Assembly (NCBI RefSeq): GCF_036711975.1
Contig: NC_091966.1
Location: 35,037,501-35,101,500 of the forward strand
DNA length: 64,000 bases
Source: Onthophagus taurus
Taxonomy: Eukaryota > Arthropoda > Insecta > Coleoptera > Scarabaeidae
Direction of reading: 5' to 3'
Positions 2,020 to 57,899 of this stretch are shown piece after piece. The stretch's first letter is position 1; each line of letters opens with the position of its first letter. The notes below the pieces were generated by a model. That model was not told where the DNA came from. It was given only the letters and a program-made list of their open reading frames with translations, and did no database searches. The position numbers and the translations under genes were made by a program.

Positions 2020-5000
2020 TTCCAGTGTGGTCCGCCGTCAGTGTATCCGGTGTACGTCTACGCGAGGTTAACCCCAACCTTGGAACTGATGACGATCCCG
2101 AAGACTGGCAGGAAATTCATAAACAAGTAGTTGAAAGGTAAAATCTATTTTCTACTTAGAATTTTTTCTTCTAATTAAATAGAGAAACTTAAAAATGAAT
2201 TTCTGATAAGTTATGTTACAATAATGCTATTTCAAGAAAATTAATCTTCTGACAATTTGCGACATATCATTTTGTTTCTGGATCTTACAAATTAACTCTA
2301 TCCTTAACAACGTCTTTATCTAGGAATGCAAAAAAATCAAAAAAAAGGAATCAAGGAATCAAAAACAATGAGGGTTATGAAAAAAGTAGCAAGAAACCGA
2401 TACTCACGAAAACCAATATTGCGGATAATTGAAAAATACGGTTTGCAACCTCCGAAGTGTGTATAATTGAATTCTTTCTGGGAAGAAGAAATCAATCCGA
2501 TATTTAACATTTATTAAGTAAAAGTAAATGTTATCGGTTAGCAAACTATCAAGGATTATATTGATATAGTATCGATGTAGCGCCTCGGCCTCAAACGACC
2601 CGTGCTTAATCAGGCTAAATCATGCATCATGTTCCGAAACGCCAAGCTGTCAGATAATGAGCCACATATTCTTATAAACTATCTAGGATTGTATTGGTAT
2701 GGTGTCGATGTAACACCTCAGCCGCAAGCGATCTCGATAACCAAATCGTTTATGTCAAGTGACTAAATCAAGCATATTTTGTTCTGAAATACGAACTAAA
2801 TGCTACTATATGTACATTAATGAAAAATCATATTCATTAGAATGTAATTCAAACGTATATATTGTGTTCTCTCGAAACGACATGGTTCAGTTTCCGTCTA
2901 CCCCAATCAAGTAGTCTACCTATTCTCTTCAAAATTAAGTAAAAGATAATGCCAGAAATTTGCCTTTACTATGTTTGCTCAATAGCAGTAAAGATGAAGA
3001 AGTAATGACAGCTCTAAAAAACATAAGAAAAATATGTTACTAGATAATCTGCACCCCAGTGTACGAAATCATTCCTTATCGTTATACCTGAGCAAGCAAA
3101 AAAAGGAAATTTTCCACGTATTAATCATAAACACAAGTGCAAAAACTACCTTCCATCAGAGAATGGAAATAAATACTGGCAACGAATTATACAATACGTG
3201 ATATTGTAGAATCGACGTTATCAAACTCTCGAAAAATAAAATTGAACGTTCCTTTAGTGTGCTAGAACTAAGAGCTGGAAGAAAAAGTCTGATCGAATTA
3301 TATTTAATGAGTGCTAATCATCTTTATTTTTGCGATGCGCTCCTCAACTACACCTTCTCTGGTCCGGAGTTTATCTCCTAGTAGTTCGGAATCCACCTAC
3401 AGTTTATTGTGGATTCCACCTAGGCGCCAACTGTGGCATAAGAACGGGATGATAATGATGAAAAATCACCTTTAGCATCGTTTATCTTCACATTCATGCC
3501 GTTTTGCACCAACAATCAAGTAATTACTGCGAAGTTGCAGATCACCGTAGCTTTCAACGCATCTAGAGACAAAGAGTTGAAAATAAACCGTAGAAACAAC
3601 TCAACGTATCAGAATGACCAAAATAACGACGAATGCCGGAAATTCTAGCGCTCCGAGTAGATCAATTAATTATGTGGCCATGTAAATACATCATTCTAAG
3701 ACGTAGATTCACAACTGTGGTTCAACGTGGTGAGTTCATCAGATTCTTATTATTAAAAAAACTTATTAAATCATCTCAAAAGTAATTGAGAGAAAAGGCT
3801 AGAAAGAAAGGTAAAAAGGTAGAATAGAATTTACTCCTGCAATTACAAATTTGTTTTGTAGAGGCTCCCACCTAGATTTGATGCAAATTTCCAAACTCCA
3901 GATGGATAATTTAACAACAGTTACGAGTCCATTCTCTTTCTTGGACATATCATCATGAATGGCATGTATTGGCCATTTGTACTGAAACATATTTCAACTG
4001 TGATTATCCTCCCTATTTCTGCAGAAGATAACGATCCTAATTGGTATCTACCATTTTTTTGCTATAATTTTTAACAACTTTGAAATTAATTCAAATTTTC
4101 ATCTCGTTATAGTTATAATTTGGTGTGGTGTCAATTCATCTTTGAAGTGTCTTGTAATAGTTGTGTTTCTATCTTTTAGGTGGTGTTGGAGTATCTGCTG
4201 GGTTTCATTCCAACACCACACGCGGTAATCTGCTTTCATTCATCTTTTTCACATTATCGTATTATCCTCTTCTTCTTTGTCTCCTCCATCTTATCACATC
4301 TAGTATACTACATCATTTTCTGATGTCTATATTTATGATTTCAGTCTTACCCAGGATAGTTCGGAACGTATTCATTTCTGCAACTCGATCTGATTTGACC
4401 AAACGATCATTCTTAAGCATCCTGATAGAGATGTCGTTTTATTGATCTGGTTTCTTAAGGCTTTTACTGGATCATGACTGCTGGAGGTCCAAGATATTTG
4501 AACTGACTGACATTTAATTGGGCTGAAAAATGAGACTGATAATGTTGCTCGCTATTTTCATTCTGCGCGTCTCATTTTTCTCTCAGATCAAGACTTTTGT
4601 GCCAAACTTCAGGTATTTGCAATGAAATATGGTTGAATAAAAGCAACAATTTTCCATTAAGTTCTTTCGCTCTGTATTTTAAAAGCTCTATAGATATATT
4701 ATCCATTCACACTGCTATTTTGCTTTCCATTTGTTAATTACCTCAGTTTTTATTCTAGCTTTTCTGCACTGATTGTTATTTTTCCTCTTGTTTCTTCAGT
4801 ACTACATAATTGTTGGAAATAACTCTACCATCTTTCTGGCTTTTTGTATTATACAGGGTGAGCGATAACAAATTTGGATGAGAATACCCAGAAATCAATT
4901 TGACAGATTTTAATTTGATAACTGTTATGTATTAATTCCATTAGTAGCTTGTTTGGTTATTTAAGTAATCGCTTCCTTATGCACCATAACAAGAAAGCGA

Positions 5001-27598: not shown

Positions 27599-28895
27599 TA
27601 CTCTGTTTTTAAACCAGGAGGAGTAAACGCGAAAGTCAGATTTACACTAGGAAAAATCACCAGAAAATATCACTAGATATTTTGGCGGTAAATTTAAATT
27701 AATAATTATTATTATTTATTTATTTACTTATTAGCTGTGTTTGGTACACTTGCTATAAATACTCCTAGTGTAGCAAGTGTAGTGCAGTTGACTACTCTCA
27801 GTTTTCAACACATTTTCAAAGTGCATAAGTGTAACAATTTTAGGTATTTGGTAAAACGGATTATTATGACAGTTATAGGTTATGACATGTAATCTTTATT
27901 ATTTCTGTAGGAAGTTGAATAATTTATTATTGATCAAAGAATCAAGATGAATAAATCAAAAAAGGAAATGTTGCCTGTAGTGACCCTATTAGAGTCTGAC
28001 ACCGAAAGTGAAGACAATGATATGATTTTTGAAGAATTGGACAGCGATGATGAAGAAAATGTATTTTTACTTTTAAGTAAAAAAGATAAAAGAACTTGCA
28101 TCGATAAATACTTTGAGGATGTAGTTCCCAAATATTCTGATGTACAGTTTAAAAAATCTTACTTACTCTCTATGTTTTGTGCCAATACTTGGCTACCGTC
28201 ATCACTTTTTACATATTTTCCCCCTTCATCATAAATTATTTTTACATTTAACTGTCTTTCAATTTTAGCCATTGTATTTAACCGGAGAACTTCCTATTCG
28301 GTTTTTAATTTTAATTGAATAGAACGTTTTCTACAAATCAAACTGTTATTTATTGTTTTTACTAGCTTACAATATTTTATTTTTGTTTAAATAAATCTAA
28401 CTTTGACACTTTCAAAAAACTAAATACGTCTTAAAGGTTATGTCGACTTACACTACACTTCCTACACTTGCCGGCGAGTCGGTGCGAAAAGTGTCTGCAC
28501 TTTTAAAACTCAATCGCTTACCAAACGCGGCGGCACTATCTACACTTGTTTGCACCAGTCTACCAAACACTATTTTTAAGAAAAAGTGTGCACTGGTGTA
28601 CGTTAGTGCAAGATACCAAACAAAGCTATTATTGTATTTATTTTCGTTTGTTATCGTCAACACTAAACATACAAATTAACATTGAAGTTATGAGTGTATT
28701 TATTTCAAAATATAATAAAGAAGGGTTTAAGAACACAAAATTTACAATAATGACACGAAACTGTCGAATTGTCAATAACCTAACCTTCAAATTCAAAATT
28801 GCCTGTGTGTGAACCTTCCTCGCATTCAACCAATCACGTGCAAGGTCAATCTGGTGACAAATTTAAAATACTCCTCCTGGTTTAAAAACAGAGTA
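27599..28895. mobile_element. TACTCTG-type MITE, copy 1, carrying a nested element
   Basis: Terminal inverted repeats TACTCTGTTTTTAAACCAGG at the left and its complement at the right, flanked by TA on both sides. Two more copies lie at 29548-29930 and 52762-57709. TA duplications and lack of coding capacity point to a mariner-like MITE; since all copies are bordered by TATA, duplication and terminus cannot be fully told apart. Relative to copy 2 it has an 0.9-kb insert at 27734-28628. Confidence 0.85.
27734..28628 (+). mobile_element. Harbinger-like nonautonomous element nested in the MITE
   Basis: Comparison with MITE copy 2 defines this insert. Ends are GCTGTGTTTGGTACACTTGC and GTGCAAGATACCAAACAAAGC (complementary with mismatches), with TTA on both sides, the 3-bp target usual for PIF/Harbinger. 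Inside, 27947-28234 encodes 95 residues: an acidic stretch (ESDTESEDNDMIFEELDSDD) then KKDKRTCIDKYFEDVVPKYS, which resembles the segment just before the nuclease domain of HARBI1-type transposases. The catalytic part is missing. Confidence 0.55.
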
Positions 28896-28897
28896 TA

Positions 28898-29448: not shown

Positions 29449-29547
29449 TCAGCGTCTGAAGACACAGGGCTAAACCCGAAACTTAAAAATATACTACTTA
29501 GCGCTGAATAACAATTAAAACTAGAATTAACACTTGCACTAGAACTA
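29448..29547 (+). repeat. Dispersed repeat shared with LDH-1 intron
   Basis: About 100 bp (GCGTCTGAAGACACAGGGCTAAACCCGAAACTT..GAATAACAATTAAAACTAGAA) matching about 7256-7360 in the same orientation. It links the satellite to the next MITE copy. Class unknown. Confidence 0.7.
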
Positions 29548-29930
29548 TACTCTGTTTTTAAACCAGGAGGAGTAACCGCGAAAGTCAGATTTACACTGGA
29601 AAAAATCACTAGATATTTTGGCGGTAAATTTAAATTAATAATTATTATTTATTTATTTACTTATTATTGTATTTATTTTCGTTTGTTATCGTCAACACTA
29701 TACATACAAATTAACATTAAAGTTATGAGTGTATTTATTTCAAAATATAATAAAAAAGGGTTTAAGAACACAAAATATACAATAATGACACGAAATTGTC
29801 GAATTATCAATTACCTAACCTTCAAATTCAAAATTGCCTATGTGTGAACCTTCCTCGCATTCAACCAATCACGTGCAAGGTCAATCTGGTGACAAATTTA
29901 AAATACTCCTCCTGGTTTAAAAACAGAGTA
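29548..29930. mobile_element. TACTCTG-type MITE, copy 2 (uninterrupted)
   Basis: A 383-bp element with the same ends as the elements at 27599 and 52762, flanked by TA. It has no insert and so serves as the reference for the other two copies. Confidence 0.9.
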
Positions 29931-30019
29931 TAGTTTCTATGTACAGGTGCACACACGGCGACTTTTCAGCCGGTAGGTAGCTGTCTTTGATTTGTATTGC
30001 GATCTGTCTTTCTCATCCT

Positions 30020-39700: not shown

Positions 39701-42700
39701 TGCAATAAAAATTGGGACATTCCATTTAAAATAACGAAATAGGCTCCATTTCCGGTATAACCGGAAGTTGCAGAAAACTCAATATGTTTTAGCTCCTCAG
39801 ATAAACCTAATAACTGTATTATCATTTACTTTATATAATTTATTGTCATAAATTTTATTATTAGGAATATCAAAACCGTAATATGCATCGAAATCAAAAT
39901 CATCAATATCACCACCAACAACAGCAGCATCATCAACAACATAATCGTAACCAACCTCAACGTCAAGGAAGTTGGACGACGCCGCGTGGTTATATGCGAC
40001 AAAGGGGACGACCAAGAGGTGGTTATAACAAGCCCCCGCAGGGCGGAGGCCCCATGAATCAACAAGGCACCGGTGGAAAACCGAAAAACACGCTCAAATT
40101 CGAAAATGATTATGATTTTGAACAGGCCAACACGGAGTTTGAAGAGTTACGTAGTCAACTAACTAAGGTAATTATTCAATTTCCTTTTTAAACTGCAACT
40201 CTAATCTTGTTTTATATTTTTAATTTTTTTTTTATAATTTTGTGTTTCTTGTTTGGTTTAATATTTGCGAAACGCAGGTGAAGTTGGATGACGGTAAGCC
40301 TGAAATGAACGGTGACAGTGATAAGAAAGATGACTCTGGCAATGAAACAGGGGCGGGAGAAGGAGAGCCGGAGGAGGAGCACGAGGTTTACTACGACAAG
40401 GCCAGGTCGTTCTTTGATAATATTTCTTGTGAGGCTGTTGAACGATCAAAAGGACGATCTCAACGCACAGACTGGCGTATTGAAAGGAAACTTAATTCGG
40501 AAACGTTTGGTGTTTCCGCAACAAGACGTGGCGGGTAAGAAAATAAGAAGTTTTATTATAAATTATGTTACAAACTTTGTTTATTAGTTTTCGTGGTCGA
40601 GGTGGATTTCGTGGAATGGGTTACCGCGGAAATTATCGTGGAAATTACAATAATCGAAATGGAGGAGGTCCACAAAGACGGGATCAACACCAACAGGTAC
40701 ATCAAAATGGTAAACCAATGGGCCAGCAAAACTCCTCAAATAAGAGCAACGTACAATCTTCCGGTAACAGTCAAGAAAATAAGACTGCAGCGACTGTAGT
40801 GAGTAAGTAAACTAATTAATTAATACAGGTGATTCAAAAAACCGCTGACAGACTTCTAGGGCAGGTAATACATCAAAAATTAAGATGAAAAGTCTTAATA
40901 TACATGGGGTCGCAAATGCCTCCTTAACGAGATATAGCGGGTTAAAATTAAACATTATCTGCAATAAAAAGCCCTTTTTTAAGAATATTTTCAACTCCAC
41001 TGCTAATTTTGCCAAATGTGCAGTATTTTCGTGTAAAGTGATCTATCAATGATCGACCAATAATTATTATTGGTCTCTTACAAAACTTTGATTAAAGGAA
41101 CAGTTTTTGATTGAATTAACAAATTTTCTACAAACGTGTTTTTCTTAAAAACTATTGTTTTGATCAAAGTTTTGTAAGAGACCAATTGATAGATAATTGA
41201 TCATTTTACACCATATATATACTATCTCCTATATCACTGACTAAGGCAGCAAAAGAGTGTAAAGACTAGAGTGCAGATATATATATATATATATCTGTCT
41301 CTGTCATGCCCCCTTCTACTCAAGAGGCATGCGTGAGCACGCGGTGAGTACGCTTTTATCTTATTGGACGGTGAATTAAAATTTAATAGCAACTGATGAC
41401 CTTGATGTTTATAAATCACCAAATAAATGTTTGACATAAACATAACCTAAAATCTAAATATTTAGTTATGTATATTATAGGTTTCATGTGTATAATAACA
41501 TAATTATTAACATATTTTAGAACTAAGCAATTTAAAATGTAATTATTATTTGTTAAGAAACTGAAGAAAATTTGTTAAAAGTAAAATAAAAAAGAAAAAG
41601 AGTAGTGGAGATATTTTTGGGGCCTAAAAATTGGTTGAACAGATAGAAGGAAAGATCTCAGTGTAATGAAAAAGAATTCAAAATCCTCCTTTTCTTGAAA
41701 CATTTTTCTTAGAAATTTAATTAATAATTACATGGACGAAAATTTTATGATAGAATATTATGTACATTAAATAGTAAGTACATATTTTGAGCTCACAAAT
41801 TATGTTAAAAATTAATAACTATATTTTGGTACACATTTTTAATAATTACTATGTATGTATTAATTTAATTTGAAAAATATAATGTTTAATGAACAACCTA
41901 CATAAATATGATATTTAAAGCAATATTCAACCTCAATTTCACACAAAAGTACATATATTCTAATTTATTTGATGCATCAATGATAATTTATAGTTAAAGT
42001 AAACCATCTATAATAATTGCATTTTAAAGCTGCACAAAATGCGCGCGAAACACTTCAAACTCTTTAAAATTTACGATTCGCGTAAGCGCTTCGCGACATG
42101 GGGGCATGACAAAGACAGACAATAGATCATTCTGTCTGCCTTTGATGGAAACGCTCTGCTCCATTGAGGTCTTATATATAATCTAGAGTGCGTATGCTGT
42201 TGTCCCCCAAGGTTTATATATAAAAGGTTGTCTAGGTTCGTACGCAACCATACTGCGTATTACGTCACATGTGGAAAATAATACCGCCAAGCAATTCAAA
42301 TTAAACAAATGCATGGAGCACCACATGGCCATTAGGTTGCGTGCGCAATCCGTGATCGCTTACGTCACGAAACACTCCTGCTCTTGCCCCTCGCCCACAA
42401 ACTAAAATCAAAGTATTGCAGAATAGCATATATATACTATCTCCTATATCGCTGACTCCCTATCTAAGCAATGAGTGGCGAGCGTTTCCATCAAAAGCAG
42501 ACGGAATGATATATGTTTTGTCTTTGTCGTGCCCCCATATCGCGAAGGCGCTTGCGCGAATCGTAAATTTTTAAGAGTTTGAAGTGTTTTGCGCGTATTT
42601 TATGCAGCTTTGAAATGCAATTATTGTAGATAGTTGACTTTAATTATAAATTATCGTAGATGCATCAAATAAATTAGAATATATGTACTTTTGTGTGAAA

Positions 42701-44589
42701 TTGACGTTGAATATTGCTTTAAATATCAACTTTATGTAGGTTGTTCATTAAACATTATATTCTTTACTTTTGTTTAGGCAACCCAAATAACAAACCAAAT
42801 TTTATGTAACCATGACAATTTTGTCGATTTCAAATGTTATAAATAAAACAAGAAGCCATTATTGTATTAGATTTTAGGTTATGTTTATGTCAAACATTTA
42901 TTTGGTGTTTTATAAACATCAAGGTCATCAGCTGCTATTAATTTTTAATTCACCGTCCAATAAGATAAAAGCGTACTCACCACGTGTTCACGCATGTCTC
43001 TTGTGTAGACGGGGGCACGACAGAGACAGATATATATATATCTGCACTCTAGTGTTTACACTCTTTTGCTGCCTTAGTCAGCGATATAGGACATAGTATA
43101 TATATGCAGAATAGGAACTTAGACAACCTTTAATATATAAACCTTGGTTGTCCCCATCACGCCTAAAATGAAGCCAGAAAGGTCGCCATGTTAGATGTAC
43201 CAACTTAGCGGGAAATGCGAAATTCATATATATACTTATGCAAGAGTTTACATTATTATAAACTGAAAAGACAAAAAATATTAACCAAAACAAAACATTA
43301 ATTTTTTATTGATAAATAATTATTAATTATATGATATTTTAAAAGAACTTAATAATTTTTAGCCACAACCCTTATAATTAACATAAACTAAGAAGAAAAT
43401 ATTTAAAGCAATTCTGATTGATCACGTTAACCTTTGCTTATAAATAATTGTTAGTTTATTTAAAAAAAACTGAACATTCCTTAATAATAACCTTTACTTG
43501 AACTTCAATTGAAGACCTCGGTGTAAGAAGGGAGTAGCTCCATTTATCAAGAGAAGGAGTTGTCCCCTTCTTACACTGTGGTCTTCAATTGTTAATTCCA
43601 AGTCAACCTGCCAAATTATAAAAAACATATGTGAAACGAAAAGAATTCGAAAACTTTCATCAAAAATCAAATTTTAATAAAAATAACAATATGTTTATGA
43701 GAATTGTGAGGTTATAATTGTAGGTACAATAGAGACTTGAAACTATAGCTAACAATAAGTTCAGGTCGGTACATCCAACATGTCTGACTTTCTGATTACC
43801 CCCACCACCACCACATACGCTCTCTAGATTATATATAAGACCTCAATGCTCTCCTCTCATTGCTTAAATAGGGAGTCAGCGATATAGGAGATAGTATATA
43901 CAGCGTGTCCCGTATCTTCCGCATCAGAGCATTATACGGTTGTAGGATACATTATTCTGAAGCGATCTTTCTAATAAAATTTTTTCGAAATGTTTATAAT
44001 AACCGCACGGGAACTGTTTAAGGAACTGTTTTTCGTCCAATCAGCAGATCGCAAATCAGACTCAGGTAATCGGTGCCACCCTCGGCCAGTCCGCTACGCC
44101 GATGATAACTCGTTTCCCACGTGTACTCACCAATAGATTCGTCATGGAAAGAGAAATAAACTTTTTCGATGAATCAAAGTTGTCCGTTATTGGTCGTCGT
44201 TAAACAGTTCCCGTGCGGTTATTATAAACATTTCGAAAAAATTTTATTAGAAAGATCGCTTCAGAATAATGTATTCTACAACCGTATAATGCTCTGATGC
44301 GGAAGATACGGGACACGCTGTATATGCTTTACACGCGTAGAGAGCAATGGCGTAGACAATATTTTTAAAAAAGTGCTTTTTATTGTAGGTAATGTTTAAT
44401 TTTAAAGAAACTTTGATCCGCTATATCTCGCCAACGAGGCATTTGCGACCCCATGTATATTAAGATTATTCATCTTAATTTTTCATGTATTATCTACTCT
44501 AGAAATTTGTCAGTGGTTTTTTGAATCATTCTGTATAGTTTGTGTATGTTTCTAATATAATTTAAATTTTTTTTGTTACAGATAAATAA
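33776..44589 (+). CDS. tral: LSM14/trailer hitch, mRNP protein
   Basis: Exons 33776-33896, 34216-34668, 34889-35100, 39865-40167, 40278-40534, 40588-40802 and 44582-44589 give 522 residues. LSM14 proteins bind DDX6/Me31B and control translation and decay in cytoplasmic granules. Seen: N-terminal LSm domain ([37 protein letters not shown]), a Pro/Gln/His-rich linker, the DFDF box ([18 protein letters not shown]), the FFD box ([16 protein letters not shown]), the TFG box ([12 protein letters not shown]) and C-terminal RGG repeats. The last exon codes only two residues and a stop: donor TGA|GTAAGT at 40802 is strong and the acceptor TTTGTTACAG at 44581 fits; reading through instead gives the same length (ending SK rather than NK). 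Introns 3 and 6 are filled with MITEs. The 3' UTR probably runs to AATAAA at about 45560. Confidence 0.95.
35340..36110. mobile_element. Long palindromic MITE in LSM14 intron 3
   Basis: Core ends CAGGTGTCATTCAAAAAGTT (35386) and its complement at 36058, flanked by TA. Similarity continues outward: AAATCTTTTACAATAAAGAC..TTAAGTATA on the left mirrors TATACTTAATTC..TTTATTGTAATAGATTT on the right, so the core may sit within an older palindromic element. A second pair of inner arms (ACACCTGTATATTATTTCAT and complement) shows internal folding. Noncoding. Confidence 0.75.
36111..39060 (+). other. LSM14 intron 3, middle part
   Basis: Unclassified AT-rich sequence apart from a small inverted-repeat element at 37096-37262. 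A GC-richer block lies at about 37660-37760. No coding similarity was found. Confidence 0.4.
37096..37262. mobile_element. Small foldback MITE
   Basis: 167 bp whose halves are complementary (CACTGCGTTAATTAATTATT.. and ..AATTAAGTAATTAACACACTG; inner arms GCAAGTATGCAACCAATATC), flanked by TA. Noncoding, mariner-like by its target. Confidence 0.8.
39061..39524. mobile_element. TA-flanked MITE in LSM14 intron 3
   Basis: 464 bp with ends CAGGATGTTTCGGTGATTCG and complement (..GAGTCACCAAAACACTG), TA on each side. Noncoding. Confidence 0.8.
42208..43146. mobile_element. CAAGGTTTATATATA MITE, copy 2 (interrupted)
   Basis: Same family as 30344-30594, with an exact 9-bp flanking repeat GTTGTCCCC (42199-42207 and 43147-43155). 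It is split by P-type element C at 42427-43106; without the insert it is about 251 bp and nearly identical to copy 1. Confidence 0.92.
42427..43106. mobile_element. P-type nonautonomous element C
   Basis: 680 bp. Ends CATATATATACTATCTCCTA and its complement, close to the P-type element at 53267-57224. An exact 8-bp duplication CAGAATAG (42419-42426, 43107-43114) inside the MITE copy at 42208 marks the insertion. Its sequence is the inverted counterpart of much of element A (41212-44326). No coding capacity. Confidence 0.9.
43901..44320. mobile_element. CAGCGTGTCCCG foldback MITE
   Basis: 420 bp with inverted arms of about 120 bp that are almost identical (CAGCGTGTCCCGTATCTTCC at each end; AACCGCACGGGAACTGTTTA at the inner edge). 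Flanked by TA within the right end of P-type element A; removing it and one TA restores GATAGTATATATATG. The near-perfect arms suggest a young insertion. Confidence 0.92.
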
Positions 44590-52735: not shown

Positions 52736-53266
52736 AATCGCCAAAAAATGTCACCTTATTATACTCTGTTTTTAAACCAGGAGGAGTAAACGCGAAAGTC
52801 AGATTTACACTAGGAAATATCACCAAAAAATATCACTAGATATTTTGGCGGTAAATTTAAATTAATAATAATTATTATTTATTTATTTACTTATTATTGT
52901 ATTCATTTTCGTTTGTTATCGTCAACACTAAACATACAAATTAACATTGAAGTTATGAGTGTATTTATTTCAAAATATAATAAAGAAGGGTTTAAGAACA
53001 CAAAATTTACAATAATGACACGAAACTGTCGAATGGGGTCATACACGATTTTTTTTTTATTATATTTTCTGAAAGTTTATATAAAAATATAGTTACCGTT
53101 ATTTTTTTTTTTTAATATTTTCGAACAAAGTCATTGTTAAAAAAATTATTGAAAATTTATATACCCATTTGCGCTTTTAAAATTCCCGCGTTGATGACGT
53201 ACGATTCTCACTTTTGCGTCCCCTGCTACCCGCTCAAATGCGAGAAAGAGATGAACGTCATTTAGG

Positions 53267-56200
53267 CATATATATACTATCTCCTATATTGCTGACTAGG
53301 AGAGCGATTACAAGCCGATGTTAGAGTGCAAACATATATATCTGCACTTGTCTTTGATCTCTACCCCGTACGCATGCGTGAGTATCAACTGCTACGTAAG
53401 CGCCACCTAGCGTAAACATTTGCTGCCATTTCCGCCATTTCTGTTTTGGTTTGTTTTTGGAGTGTTCAGCGTGGTGTTACTATTGTGTTATTAAGTGTTT
53501 ATTATTGACTATTTTCTTTTTTTTAATATTAGTGTTTGTACATAATTTTATAGACGTACGGTAAGAAATTATAATAATAAAAATATCTGGTGTAGGTATG
53601 TACATGTTATTTTCTTTCAGTGTTATTTTGTTCTAAATTTACTGCATGTAAGCAATGCCTCCTGTCCGGTGTTGTATATGTAGAAAGGGCCCTCCAGCAA
53701 CCTTGCATGTGTAAGTAAATATTTATATATCAATACAGGGTAATTTCTATTTTAATTTCTCTTAACATCATCAATATCGTTGCAGTTTTCCAAAAGATAA
53801 TGTACAGCTTGCTTCGTGGAAGCAAATATGTAACTACGACGACAGAGATAACGTTTCTAAACTTAAAATATGCTCAAATCATTTTTTACCACAAGATTAT
53901 TTTGAGCCAAACGCCAAGAAATTGGGTGGTGCATTAAGGTTAAGACCTAATACAGTTCCGTCTGTGTCTGTGCCGAATCAACTCACAAGATGTGAACCGA
54001 CAGATGTTGCTTTTGAGAATATAACATCAGAAGTTGCAAAATTGCCAGAGGTACTATCGCCTACAATGCAATCAATAGATACAACACAGTTGATTCGAAA
54101 GCAATTATTTCCTACTACGACACAATCAGTAGAAGTGACTACATCAAGTATTAATACTGAATTGGGTATGTATTGCTTTATAAATAAATTGTTGCTTCAG
54201 TGTATGTTTGATGTTACCCTGAATTGTTCCCAGTCTGTTAAGTGTAGAACACTATTTAAACGCAATACTTAACCCTTTTTTAGATGAAACTCTACCATGT
54301 ACTCCCAAGAAAAGAAAATTTTACTCTCCTCGTTATGTTGGCGAAATAACTTCTGCTGATGTAGCTACTCCTCGAAGAGCTAAACGGGTAGTGGCTTTAG
54401 CACAAGCTGATATAAAAAAGAAAGCACGACAAATTAAAACTCTACAAGGAAAAGTGGGAAGATTACAGAAAAAAGTTTCATCGTTGCAGGGACTTATCAA
54501 ACATCTAAGGGCAGGGAATATTCTATCTGAAGATGCTGGCGATACATTGATGGTACATTTGTGATCTTTATCTTATTAATTATCTTCCAAGTCTTCTTTC
54601 ACAACTTTTTTCAGTTATTTATACTGTGGGTTAACCTTCAATATCTAACATTTATTCTTTTTTTTATTGTTATTTATATTTATATATGAGGCATTTAGTA
54701 GTTAAAGGTTAAATGAGACATTAGTTTCAAATCCAATAGTAGAATATAGATCACTATTAAAAAATGTTTTTGGAAAAACTAAAAACTAATTAATAACATT
54801 ACTTGTATACATATTTTATCTTCTATTCATTTATAAATAGGTTATTAACAGATCAATACTTAATGTAAACTAAAAGTTTATGTAAATGTGGACAAATCAT
54901 TTAAAAGCGTTGTAAATTAGTTTTTCATTAATGTAATTGGGTTGATAGTTGTAATTAGTAGTTTAAGAAATTTTTTTTCATCTTAGAATTTGTTGGCACT
55001 TAATTCCTCTTTTTTAAGGAAAACTATTAATAATTAATCAGAAAACAAATAAGCTTAAACAATTAAAATTAATATTACGGTGTAATAAATATTAAAGGCA
55101 AGTTAATATGTTGTTATAGGATATATTACCAGATAGCGTGAAACAGTTAATTGGAAGAAAGTTGCAGACAAAGAGGAGGCGATTTGCACTGGAACTGCGA
55201 GCATTTGCTTTAACTTTACAATTTTATTCTGCGAAAGCTTATAGTTATGTTCGAAGAACGTGGCAAAACTTGTTGCCTCATCCATCCACACTTCGTGCAT
55301 GGTATGCTGTTGTTGATGGCAAACCTGGTTTTACCTCTGAGGCATTATCCGCCATTCGTGTGCAAGCCTCTACAAAAAATATTTTGATAAACCTCGTCAT
55401 AGATGAAATGGCGTTACGAGAACAAAGGATTTTTGACAAAAACAGATTTTATGGAGGAGTGGATCTTGGAACTAGTACTTCAAATCAAGATAGTGATAAT
55501 ATTCAATTAGCTAAAAATGCCCTGGTTTTTATGGCGGTCTGTGTGAACGGCGGATGGAAGGTTCCGGTGGCATATTTTCTGATTAAAGGCCTTACCAGCT
55601 CAGAAAGAGCCAATTTATTAAAAACATGCCTGGAGCTATTACATGAGACTGGTGCGCATGTTAGATCAATTACCTTCGATGGCGCATCAGTTAATTTAGG
55701 AATGTGTAACAATATGGGGGCCAATTTTAATTTTTCCTCTAAGAATTTTAAACCCTGGATCGAGCACCCTATCACAAAGAAGAACATCTACATTTTTTTT
55801 GATGCTTGTCACATGATAAAGCTTGTGAGAAACACGCTGGGTGACAAAGGCTTAATTGTAGATGGTGACAATAAAAAAATTAACTGGTTACATATAACAG
55901 AATTAAATAAAATTCAATTAAAAGAAGGCTTGCACTTAGCCACCAAAATTACAACAAAACACATAAAGTATTACGACAATCGTATGAATGTTAAATTGGC
56001 CACTCAAACATTGGGCAAAAGTGTATACAATGCATTACTATTTTTAAAACAAACAAAGTACAATCCCGTCACATTTGATGAGTGTGAAGGCACTGCTAAT
56101 TTTTGCCTAATGTGTAACAATATATTTGATATGTTGAATTGTCGGAATAAATTTTCAAAACACAATGAATTTAATCGTCCACTATCAAATGAAACAATTG

Positions 56201-57224
56201 AAAATTGTAGAGAAAAAGCAAATATATTAATTAAATATATTGTAGCTCTTAAAGATCCTCATGGGATTAAACTTATAGATGGTCCACGAAAAATTGGATT
56301 TTTAGGCTTAGTCATAGACCTTACTAATGTATTTAAATATTTTGAAGATATAAAAGATATTATAGATTATCTTCTAACATTTAAATTAAGCCAAGATTTT
56401 ATCGAGACGTATTTTAGCGCTATCAGAAGTCGTGGTGGCTTCAATAATAATCCGAATGCCAAGCAATTTGAAAGTGCCTTCAGACGCTTATTAATTAGAA
56501 GCGAAATAAAAATTTTTGATAATTCGAATTGCTTGGCAGACGGATTAGATATTTTACACATATCATCAAAACGAAGCCAATATGTATGTCCATTACAAGA
56601 AAGTTGTGAAAACATTTCCGCTGATGTGTTCGATCACGATTATGTAAATACAATGTGGAAATTTAATAACTATGTAGAAAATGTGATAGAATACATCAGC
56701 GGATTTGTTGTTAACAAAATTTTAGCGTCAAATATGTGCACTTTTTGTAAAAGGTATTTAGTATCTAGTGAAAAAAATTGTTTATTGATTAATTTAAAAA
56801 ATGAGGGAAAGCTAATTTATCCCTCAAAAGATGTTACTACAATTTGTCAGATTGCCGAAAGGGTTTATAGAGAGAACATAACTAAAATATTCAGCACCAA
56901 TATTAAGAGTGTTATGATAAACAATGTTGTCCGGAGGTGTTATCGTTTAGTATTCAATAATCAAGATTTAATAACGCACGTACAAAGCCAAGATTATTTA
57001 GATAATCACATATCACAATTAATAAAAATAATTGTTGATAAATATTACGTTATACGACTGTTTCATGAGTGTAAATTAAATTCTTCAAAAAATGAGTATG
57101 TTCGCTCAAAATATCATAGATTAATTCTTTTTAAGAATCAATAAATAAATTCAAAATGACTAGTTTTCTTATTAGTTCCTATTTTTATTAGGGAGTAAGC
57201 AATATAGGAGATAGTATATATATG
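53267..57224 (+). mobile_element. P-type DNA transposon, apparently complete (level 4)
   Basis: 3958 bp. Ends match as 31-bp inverted repeats at 30 of 31 positions (CATATATATACTATCTCCTA..GCTGACT), the same repeat length as the Drosophila P element. The flanks are an exact 8-bp direct repeat CATTTAGG (53259-53266 and 57225-57232), the P-type signature. It encodes one intact spliced THAP transposase (53655-57144). Two nonautonomous elements with the same ends lie at 41212-44326 and 42427-43106. The exact duplication and open frame suggest recent, possibly still possible, mobility; this is inference. Confidence 0.95.
53655..57144 (+). CDS. P-element/THAP9-type transposase
   Basis: Exons 53655-53710, 53786-54165, 54284-54552 and 55120-57144 join in phase to 909 residues, close to THAP9 (903) and longer than Drosophila P transposase (751). 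Residues 1-85 are a THAP DNA-binding domain: zinc ligands Cys6, Cys9, Cys48, His51, the conserved Trp30 and the C-terminal Pro. A basic, leucine-rich coiled coil follows (about 190-230), as used for dimerisation. The catalytic RNase H-like fold shows Asp330 (INLVIDEM), Asp422 (SITFDGAS) and Glu664 (QDFIETYFSAIRSRGGF), with the GTP-domain insertion between. FDACHMIKLVRN is the usual D..H..K motif. No internal stops. Retaining the third intron would stop the protein three codons on, leaving only THAP and coiled coil. Confidence 0.93.
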
Positions 57225-57899
57225 CATTTAGGTTGTATTGAAAAGAGATAGAGTGTTTGTAGGTTATGTTTATTATGTTTTGTTCATGGATGTAATAGAG
57301 ACACTCTATTACATCCATGGTTTTATTTTGACACTGTCACACCGCAAGCGCTATCTAACGGACAATTTAACTTGTTTTAGGCAGTGCGGTTCCTACGTCA
57401 CAGAAAAGCCGCGAAATTATTTCGTTTGAATATTTGCTATTTTTCACTTCAAATTACGCAAAATATAAAATTGATCAAAATATTTCTTTTACTTTGTGTT
57501 CATGCATATACTTGCATATATCGTTTGACATAAAAATTTTCTCTAAATTTAATAAGTGTGTATGACCCCATTGTCAATAACCAAAAAAAAATTGAAAAAA
57601 AAAAAATCAAAATTGCCTGTGTGTGAACCTTCCTCGCATTCAACCAATCACGTGCAAGGTCAATCTGGTGACAAATTTAAAATACTCCTCCTGGTTTAAA
57701 AACAGAGTATAGTAATAGTTATCTGCCAAATTTCATCCTTCCAAATTCCTCCATAGTGGATTTATTAAAGAAATACAATTTTTTTCCCCTAATTTTAGAG
57801 GGCTGTAACTTGGAGGAGAAGTGGTCATAACCCCCGTAACTTAATTTTTGCTGAAAAATCACCCCTTAAAATCTTTCGCATCAATTTAGATAAATCCTG

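Follow-up and report, generated by a model that had tools for sequence, protein, structure and literature searches.

A coding-complete P-superfamily transposon in the beetle Onthophagus taurus that most likely lost its right subterminal region

A P element with a complete gene in a beetle genome raises the question of whether such a copy can still move itself, move others, or do neither. The locus considered here lies in 64,000 nucleotides of Onthophagus taurus (Coleoptera; Scarabaeidae), hereafter the window (assembly GCF_036711975.1, contig NC_091966.1, positions 35,037,501 to 35,101,500 of the forward strand), in which a P-superfamily transposon occupies positions 53267-57224. An initial annotation, made from the sequence alone, described this focal element as intact and possibly part of an active, horizontally mobile family. 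The present analysis supports a P-superfamily transposon which is coding-complete and recently inserted, and whose activity is plausible on indirect grounds, but it corrects the earlier description, as the element is coding-complete but end-deleted. On balance, we favour the reading in which it is probably impaired in cis and possibly a helper in trans.

The element and its boundaries comprise the following features.

53267-57224: focal P element, 3958 bp, P-superfamily cut-and-paste DNA transposon
53267-53297, plus strand: left terminal inverted repeat (TIR), 31 bp, identified by end comparison
57194-57224, minus strand: right TIR, 31 bp, equal to the left repeat at 30 of 31 positions
53259-53266, plus strand: left target duplication CATTTAGG, read from the sequence
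57225-57232, plus strand: right target duplication CATTTAGG, an exact copy of the left one

Both the 8-bp target duplication, which is perfect, and the inverted ends, with 30 of their 31 positions matching, are thus as the initial annotation had claimed. It had also proposed searching the whole assembly for these ends; a 26-nt end pattern with up to three mismatches matched 274 sites (128 forward, 146 reverse) in the 290.8-Mb genome, the reversed control matching none, and six sites in the window against none in 100 shuffles. Since the counts exceed their controls on both scales, the ends are not attributable to chance.

The gene between the ends is organised as follows.

53655-53710, plus strand: exon 1, start of the THAP domain (residues 1-18 and part of 19)
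53711-53785, plus strand: intron 1, GT-AG, acceptor kept in the relative L020
53786-54165, plus strand: exon 2, remainder of the THAP domain
54166-54283, plus strand: intron 2, GT-AG, donor and acceptor kept in L020
54284-54552, plus strand: exon 3, start of the helix-turn-helix (HTH) and probable coiled coil
54553-55119, plus strand: intron 3, GT-AG, 567 bp
55120-57144, plus strand: exon 4, most of the HTH, RNase H, GTP-binding insertion, C-terminus and stop
55402-55404, plus strand: catalytic D330 (Drosophila D230), by alignment
55678-55680, plus strand: catalytic D422 (Drosophila D303), by alignment
55807-56163, plus strand: GTP-binding insertion domain, residues 465-583, by Pfam
56404-56406, plus strand: catalytic E664 (Drosophila E531), by alignment
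57140-57145, plus strand: AATAAA overlapping the stop codon, a possible poly(A) signal

The four exons join into the single 909-residue frame that had been proposed, free of internal stops and carrying D at residues 330 and 422 and E at residue 664. The catalytic assignment of these three holds as well, as they align with D230, D303 and E531, described as the acidic triad of the Drosophila P transposase (PMC7776569). Pfam recovered, all above cut-off and in this order, THAP (PF05485, N-terminal, E 4.3e-9), the Tnp_P_element HTH (E 3.5e-21), the N-terminal part of RNase H (TNP-like RNaseH_N, E 4.5e-43), the GTP-binding insertion (E 1.1e-39) and the C-terminal part of RNase H (RNaseH_C, E 2.6e-14), the HTH, RNase H and GTP-binding parts corresponding to PF12017, PF21787, PF21788 and PF21789. 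The sole relative of solved structure at E 0.001 is the Drosophila P transposase (6p5a/6pe2, E 7.8e-24). The three GT-AG introns are compatible with one frame, their splicing being predicted from sequence, and L020, a relative 74-77% identical in nucleotides, keeps three of the six splice sites, namely the acceptor of intron 1 and both sites of intron 2 (L numbers denote P-type or repeat sequences elsewhere in the genome, C numbers its contigs). Retention of intron 3 is predicted to stop the frame after three intron-coded residues, giving a THAP-containing protein of 238 residues which, as a speculation, would be comparable in principle to the truncated Drosophila repressor. The ratio of nonsynonymous to synonymous substitution (dN/dS) is 0.10 against L010, a member of a sister subfamily, at a synonymous divergence (dS) of 1.9, which is near saturation; this supports past purifying selection on the transposase lineage.

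The locus therefore has the TIRs of about 31 bp, the 8-bp duplication, the THAP and HTH domains, the RNase H triad and the GTP-binding insertion that characterise the P superfamily. Of the subterminal signals found at both ends of P elements it has the left motif and lacks the right; as such two-ended signals are a mark of completeness and not of the superfamily as such, its membership is kept.

The surroundings of the element give a bound on its age.

53032-57572, plus strand: 575-bp repeat (AATGGGGTCATACAC...GTGTATGACCCCATT) split by the focal element; 40 scored copies are uninterrupted at the site

An empty-site query of 500 bp, made by joining 250 bp from each flank with one CATTTAGG, gave 154 first-look candidates, and the 40 places scored match it at 98-100% over the insertion site. 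As these copies are uninterrupted, the focal element lies within a dispersed repeat, which has inverted ends AATGGGGTCATACAC and at least 40 copies scored at 98-100% identity. At L090 and L071 the insertion site shows CATTTAGG once; compared with these two, the copy in the window has a private substitution at one position and one poly-T tract of different length. A copy so little changed is young, and the P insertion within it is younger still; the insertion is recent, with a loose age bound drawn from three sequences and one substitution. The repeat copy in the window also contains a perfect 16-bp hairpin at 57285-57319, while that of L071 (C1:20330000-20334900) sits, by eye, inside an apparent env-like retroelement reading frame.

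The right end of the element departs from that of its relatives.

57189-57190, plus strand: deletion junction, where the 3' untranslated region is joined to the last 35 bp; L002, L003, L005 and L010 keep homologous sequence
53322-53330, plus strand: left subterminal motif TAGAGTGCA, 24 nt inside the TIR, a candidate transposase site

The similarity of L002, L003, L004 and L005 to the focal element ends at element position 3921-3924. Beyond 57189, L002, L003 and L005, whose C-terminal coding parts show 85-97% identity, run on into common sequence, and L010 (68% identical in amino acids) runs on into sequence homologous to it, 74% identical to L003 over 134 bp; the tails of L003 and L010 align with a score of 69, where 500 shuffles reached 34 at most. 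Such sequence is thus kept in four of the five relatives checked, L004 entering unrelated sequence and being uninformative. In the focal element the 3' untranslated region passes directly to AGGG and the 31-bp end, which together make up the 35 bp of its right end; about 590 bp separate the stop-codon region from the right end in L010. Allowing up to three mismatches, a genome-wide search found this junction a single time. Because the relatives continue with homologous sequence at this point, the right subterminal region was most likely lost from the focal element, and the earlier term "intact" fits the gene and not the right end.

The same conclusion is approached from the ends of other elements. 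Twenty regions were picked for nearby ends among the end-pattern matches listed; in the 32 sequences examined, 31 left ends had a convergent right end, 24 with exact 8-bp duplications and 27 with no more than two mismatches (the focal element included); L071, L056 and L061 had no convergent end pair. The four failing the duplication filter (window 41212, L053, L052 and L060) were kept out of the main comparisons, their motifs being added later, so that the motif comparison covered 30 other elements, 26 with a duplication of at most two mismatches and four without. Since L059 and L087 share both the duplication ATAGTTCT and the flanking repeat, the 24 exact duplications represent at most 23 independent sites.

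Within one nucleotide of a fixed place inside the left end, TAGAGTGCA is found with at most one mismatch in 29 of the 30 other elements (the exception being L083). Inside the right end, with the same tolerance of place, AAGCAATGAG is present at up to one mismatch in all 30 and GACGGAATGAT exactly in 29, the exception being the element at window 41212-43904. Neither right motif occurs in the right 200 bp of the focal element, where the best matches have three and four mismatches respectively. Moreover, 22 of the 26 elements have 11-20 bp common to their left and right subterminal regions, a pattern reminiscent of the subterminal inverted repeats known in elements of Drosophila and zebrafish; for two of these 22, one shuffle in 100 likewise gave a match of 12 bp. 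Such a match is lacking in L003, L059, L072, L086 and the focal element, whose longest left-right match is 6 bp, equalled in 96 of 100 shuffles, with no subterminal inverted repeat above the shuffles. More telling than these counts is the presence of the right motifs in both L003 and L010 despite the near-saturated dS of 1.9 between the focal element and L010. The right-end loss probably impairs the movement of the focal element in cis.

The events can be pictured as follows. The transposon inserted recently into a young copy of the 575-bp repeat, creating the 8-bp duplication. By analogy with Drosophila P and from the domain content, the THAP domain and the HTH would recognise the ends, THAP binding subterminal sites; GTP would support the pairing of both ends, and the RNase H triad would cut and join them, the staggered joining yielding the 8-bp duplication. 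The right-end deletion would weaken the element's own movement, while its complete gene may still serve, in trans, non-autonomous elements in which both ends are retained. We are least sure of this action in trans, since such elements seem to derive from the sister subfamily. One of them lies in the window.

42427-43106, minus strand: 680-bp non-autonomous P element, ends by eye within 2 of 31 positions of the focal left end
42419-42426 and 43107-43114: exact CAGAATAG duplications of the 680-bp element

It is nested in a larger P-type element, at window 41212-43904, the right end of which is decayed, without GACGGAATGAT and with an unrecognisable duplication (five of eight positions mismatched).

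The non-autonomous elements bear on whether a transposase was recently at work. Mean pairwise difference is 0.69% in the 680-bp family (n=7) and 2.1% in a family of about 1 kb (n=11), and the 18 measured copies are young. The initial annotation would have given up an active family if all copies were fixed and diverged; the other same-subfamily copies found are indeed diverged fragments, yet these 18 are not. Of the 31 positions of the focal left end, 29 agree with L010 and 30 with the common non-autonomous end. Two elements of about 1 kb, L044 and L059, match L010 on the left over 496 bp (96-97%) and on the right over about 330 bp (90-92%), and among the matches listed the right 329 bp of L010 is about 90-93% identical to other non-autonomous elements. 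As both parts match L010, the non-autonomous elements look like deletion derivatives of the sister subfamily, for which the scored candidates yielded no coding copy.

Scoring the best 40 of 114 and the best 50 of 521 candidates revealed one near-full-length coding copy. The other pieces of its subfamily, among the best 40 of 114, are fragments about 76-97% identical, and all those compared contain stops except L005 and L032. In both L003 and L005, position 250 is joined to position 3127 by a shared internal deletion. L003 (C3:28853571-28855893) is a composite with an exact duplication, its left end resembling the focal element and its right end the sister subfamily. On a broader scale, at least 150 P-type RNase H matches are present in the genome (150 scored of 341 candidates). 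A transposase tree had been suggested; an unrooted FastTree phylogeny was built with the focal element, Drosophila P and 11 genome sequences, L010 and L025 being left out for having fewer than 250 residues. In it, Drosophila P groups with L038, L034 and L035 (local support 1.000), apart from the focal element. The transposase of L038 was considered as the owner of neighbouring P-type ends and rejected, as those ends pair as separate short elements.

Several points weigh against the reading of an element impaired in cis and possibly helping in trans. The 30 other elements share descent, so that motif counts are not independent, and three groups in all were compared for the right end (L003, L010 and the non-autonomous families). 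L003 too is without a subterminal inverted repeat, which may then not be ancestral in the focal subfamily, and its right end is possibly hybrid rather than that of this subfamily. The duplication and the recency of the insertion do not fix whether the deletion came before or after it; if before, 35 bp of right end sufficed for movement. The Drosophila P transposase is reported to excise the zebrafish element Pdre2, in which Drosophila-like THAP sites were not found (PMC10983969), and missing motifs hence need not abolish movement. With regard to action in trans, the sister-like derivation of the non-autonomous families means that another transposase may have moved them, the sister enzyme being possibly lost, missed among the candidates scored, or unassembled; the limited scoring (40 of 114 and 50 of 521) may equally have missed coding copies. 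Finally, dN/dS is 0.31-0.66 in 10 of the 11 relatives compared, as expected where one side is decaying.

The alternative that survives best, and which we regard as possible, is a fully autonomous mobile element for which the 35-bp right end (TIR and AGGG) suffices, its low copy number reflecting a recent start or silencing by the host. The exact duplication, the 30/31 ends, the complete gene and the recent insertion all agree with it, as does the reported ability of P transposase to excise an element without recognised canonical sites (PMC10983969). It has to contend, however, with the absence here of right subterminal motifs which the other elements have, the sister L010 included, with a junction found once in the genome, and with a single near-full-length coding copy among the candidates scored.

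A bolder form of action in trans seems doubtful to us: the element would be a stay-at-home helper, itself immobile and the sole remaining coding-complete transposase with these ends, now driving a burst of perhaps a hundred elements of the sister subfamily. On this reading the right subterminal region would have been lost shortly ahead of or following the recent insertion, and the transposase would act across the subfamily boundary. If the element does act as a helper, it would offer a natural system in which to ask what subterminal sites are required by a P-type transposase, and how one immobilised transposase source shapes a non-autonomous swarm; otherwise, the focal element is a well-preserved representative of a superfamily that is widespread, in a P-rich genome. 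The near-matching ends, despite a dS of 1.9 against L010, make cross-mobilisation directly testable.

It is unlikely that the element is a recently silenced, non-functional copy with no role, its frame open merely because the insertion is young. Such a view would account for the one coding copy found among the candidates scored and for the other same-subfamily copies being fragments, mostly with stops, but it sits poorly with 909 codons without a stop, a conserved triad and some conserved splice sites, and the young non-autonomous elements with near-identical ends need a recently active transposase.

Recent horizontal arrival from another species, in line with the horizontal mobility initially suggested, is very improbable. 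A young insertion and a single near-full-length copy among the candidates scored would fit; set against them are the resident relics of the same subfamily (about 76-97% identical), which suggest long residence, and a sister subfamily with common ends and subterminal motifs. A search for exon 4 relatives in viral contigs gave 37 pattern matches, none of them a relative. Arrival from outside was rejected as the default reading, given the resident relics. Domestication as a THAP9-like host gene deserves next to no credence, since the one coding-complete copy and the past purifying selection on its lineage have to be set beside TIRs and an exact duplication flanking the gene, in a young host repeat with empty paralogues.

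The surprise initially attached to a P element outside Diptera proves small. One survey reports P-superfamily sequences in all the arthropods it covered (PMC6327564), and with this and the RNase H matches counted here, the notion that P elements outside Diptera are exceptional was rejected; elements of the focal kind are already known from many insects. Among the papers listed in literature searches, no coding-complete P element with miniature inverted-repeat transposable elements (MITEs) outside Diptera was noticed beyond zebrafish, and no absence is claimed.

The closest parallels are found in Anopheles gambiae, for which P subfamilies are described with coding copies and P-MITEs, including one hybrid with ends from two subfamilies (PMC1562414) that L003 may resemble. 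The coding copies tabulated there (873-894 residues, Table 1) share with the focal element the THAP domain, TIRs of similar length (27-32 bp), perfect 8-bp duplications and related MITE families. The focal element, in contrast, has four exons, where the Anopheles elements are given three in all but one case, is shorter (3958 bp against 4178-7545 bp for coding copies), and is without the right subterminal region that its relatives keep (PMC1562414 for the Anopheles values). Drosophila melanogaster P, as described in PMC7776569, likewise has 31-bp TIRs, a third intron (IVS3) and HTH, RNase H and GTP-binding domains, and its subterminal signals are spaced differently at the two ends, as in relatives of the focal element. 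The two transposases are 28.5% identical over 417 aligned residues; they are placed separately in the tree, and the right-end subterminal signal is unrecognised in the focal copy. The zebrafish Pdre2/THAP9 system (PMC10983969) is described as having one THAP9-type transposase gene, several internally deleted elements and 8-bp duplications, a similar arrangement, but it is a vertebrate system with 13-bp TIRs and 12-bp subterminal repeats. By analogy only, P[delta2-3]99B is described as a stable Drosophila transposase gene acting in trans on non-autonomous elements (PMC7776569); there an intron was removed by engineering, whereas here the stability would stem from a natural deletion at the right end, and the action in trans is putative.

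Further observations concern the nesting of repeats and other P-type families. A further repeat surrounds the 575-bp repeat (52760-53034 and 57589-57712), occurring also at 28627-28897 and 29546-29934, which makes three levels of nesting; its copies at L059 and L087 adjoin the non-autonomous P elements that both have ATAGTTCT as their duplication. Exact TTAGG and TCAGG repeats of five units were not found at contig ends, TCAGG x5 being absent genome-wide; TTAGG x5 occurs only at an internal position, C3:12202483-12202517 (three overlapping matches, against 11 in the reversed control). L027 and L028 (C15:1828457-1835970) are two P-type copies in inverted arrangement, identical over 3645 bp and lying within 8 kb. 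Three pairs from other P-type families lie on different contigs: L021 and L022 (C1, C2; 99.95% over 4248 bp), L023 and L024 (C2, C10; 100% over 4044 bp) and L034 and L035 (C10, C11; 98% over 3206 bp), L034 having an open frame of 855 residues. The near-identity of these three pairs reflects either recent movement or duplication in the assembly.

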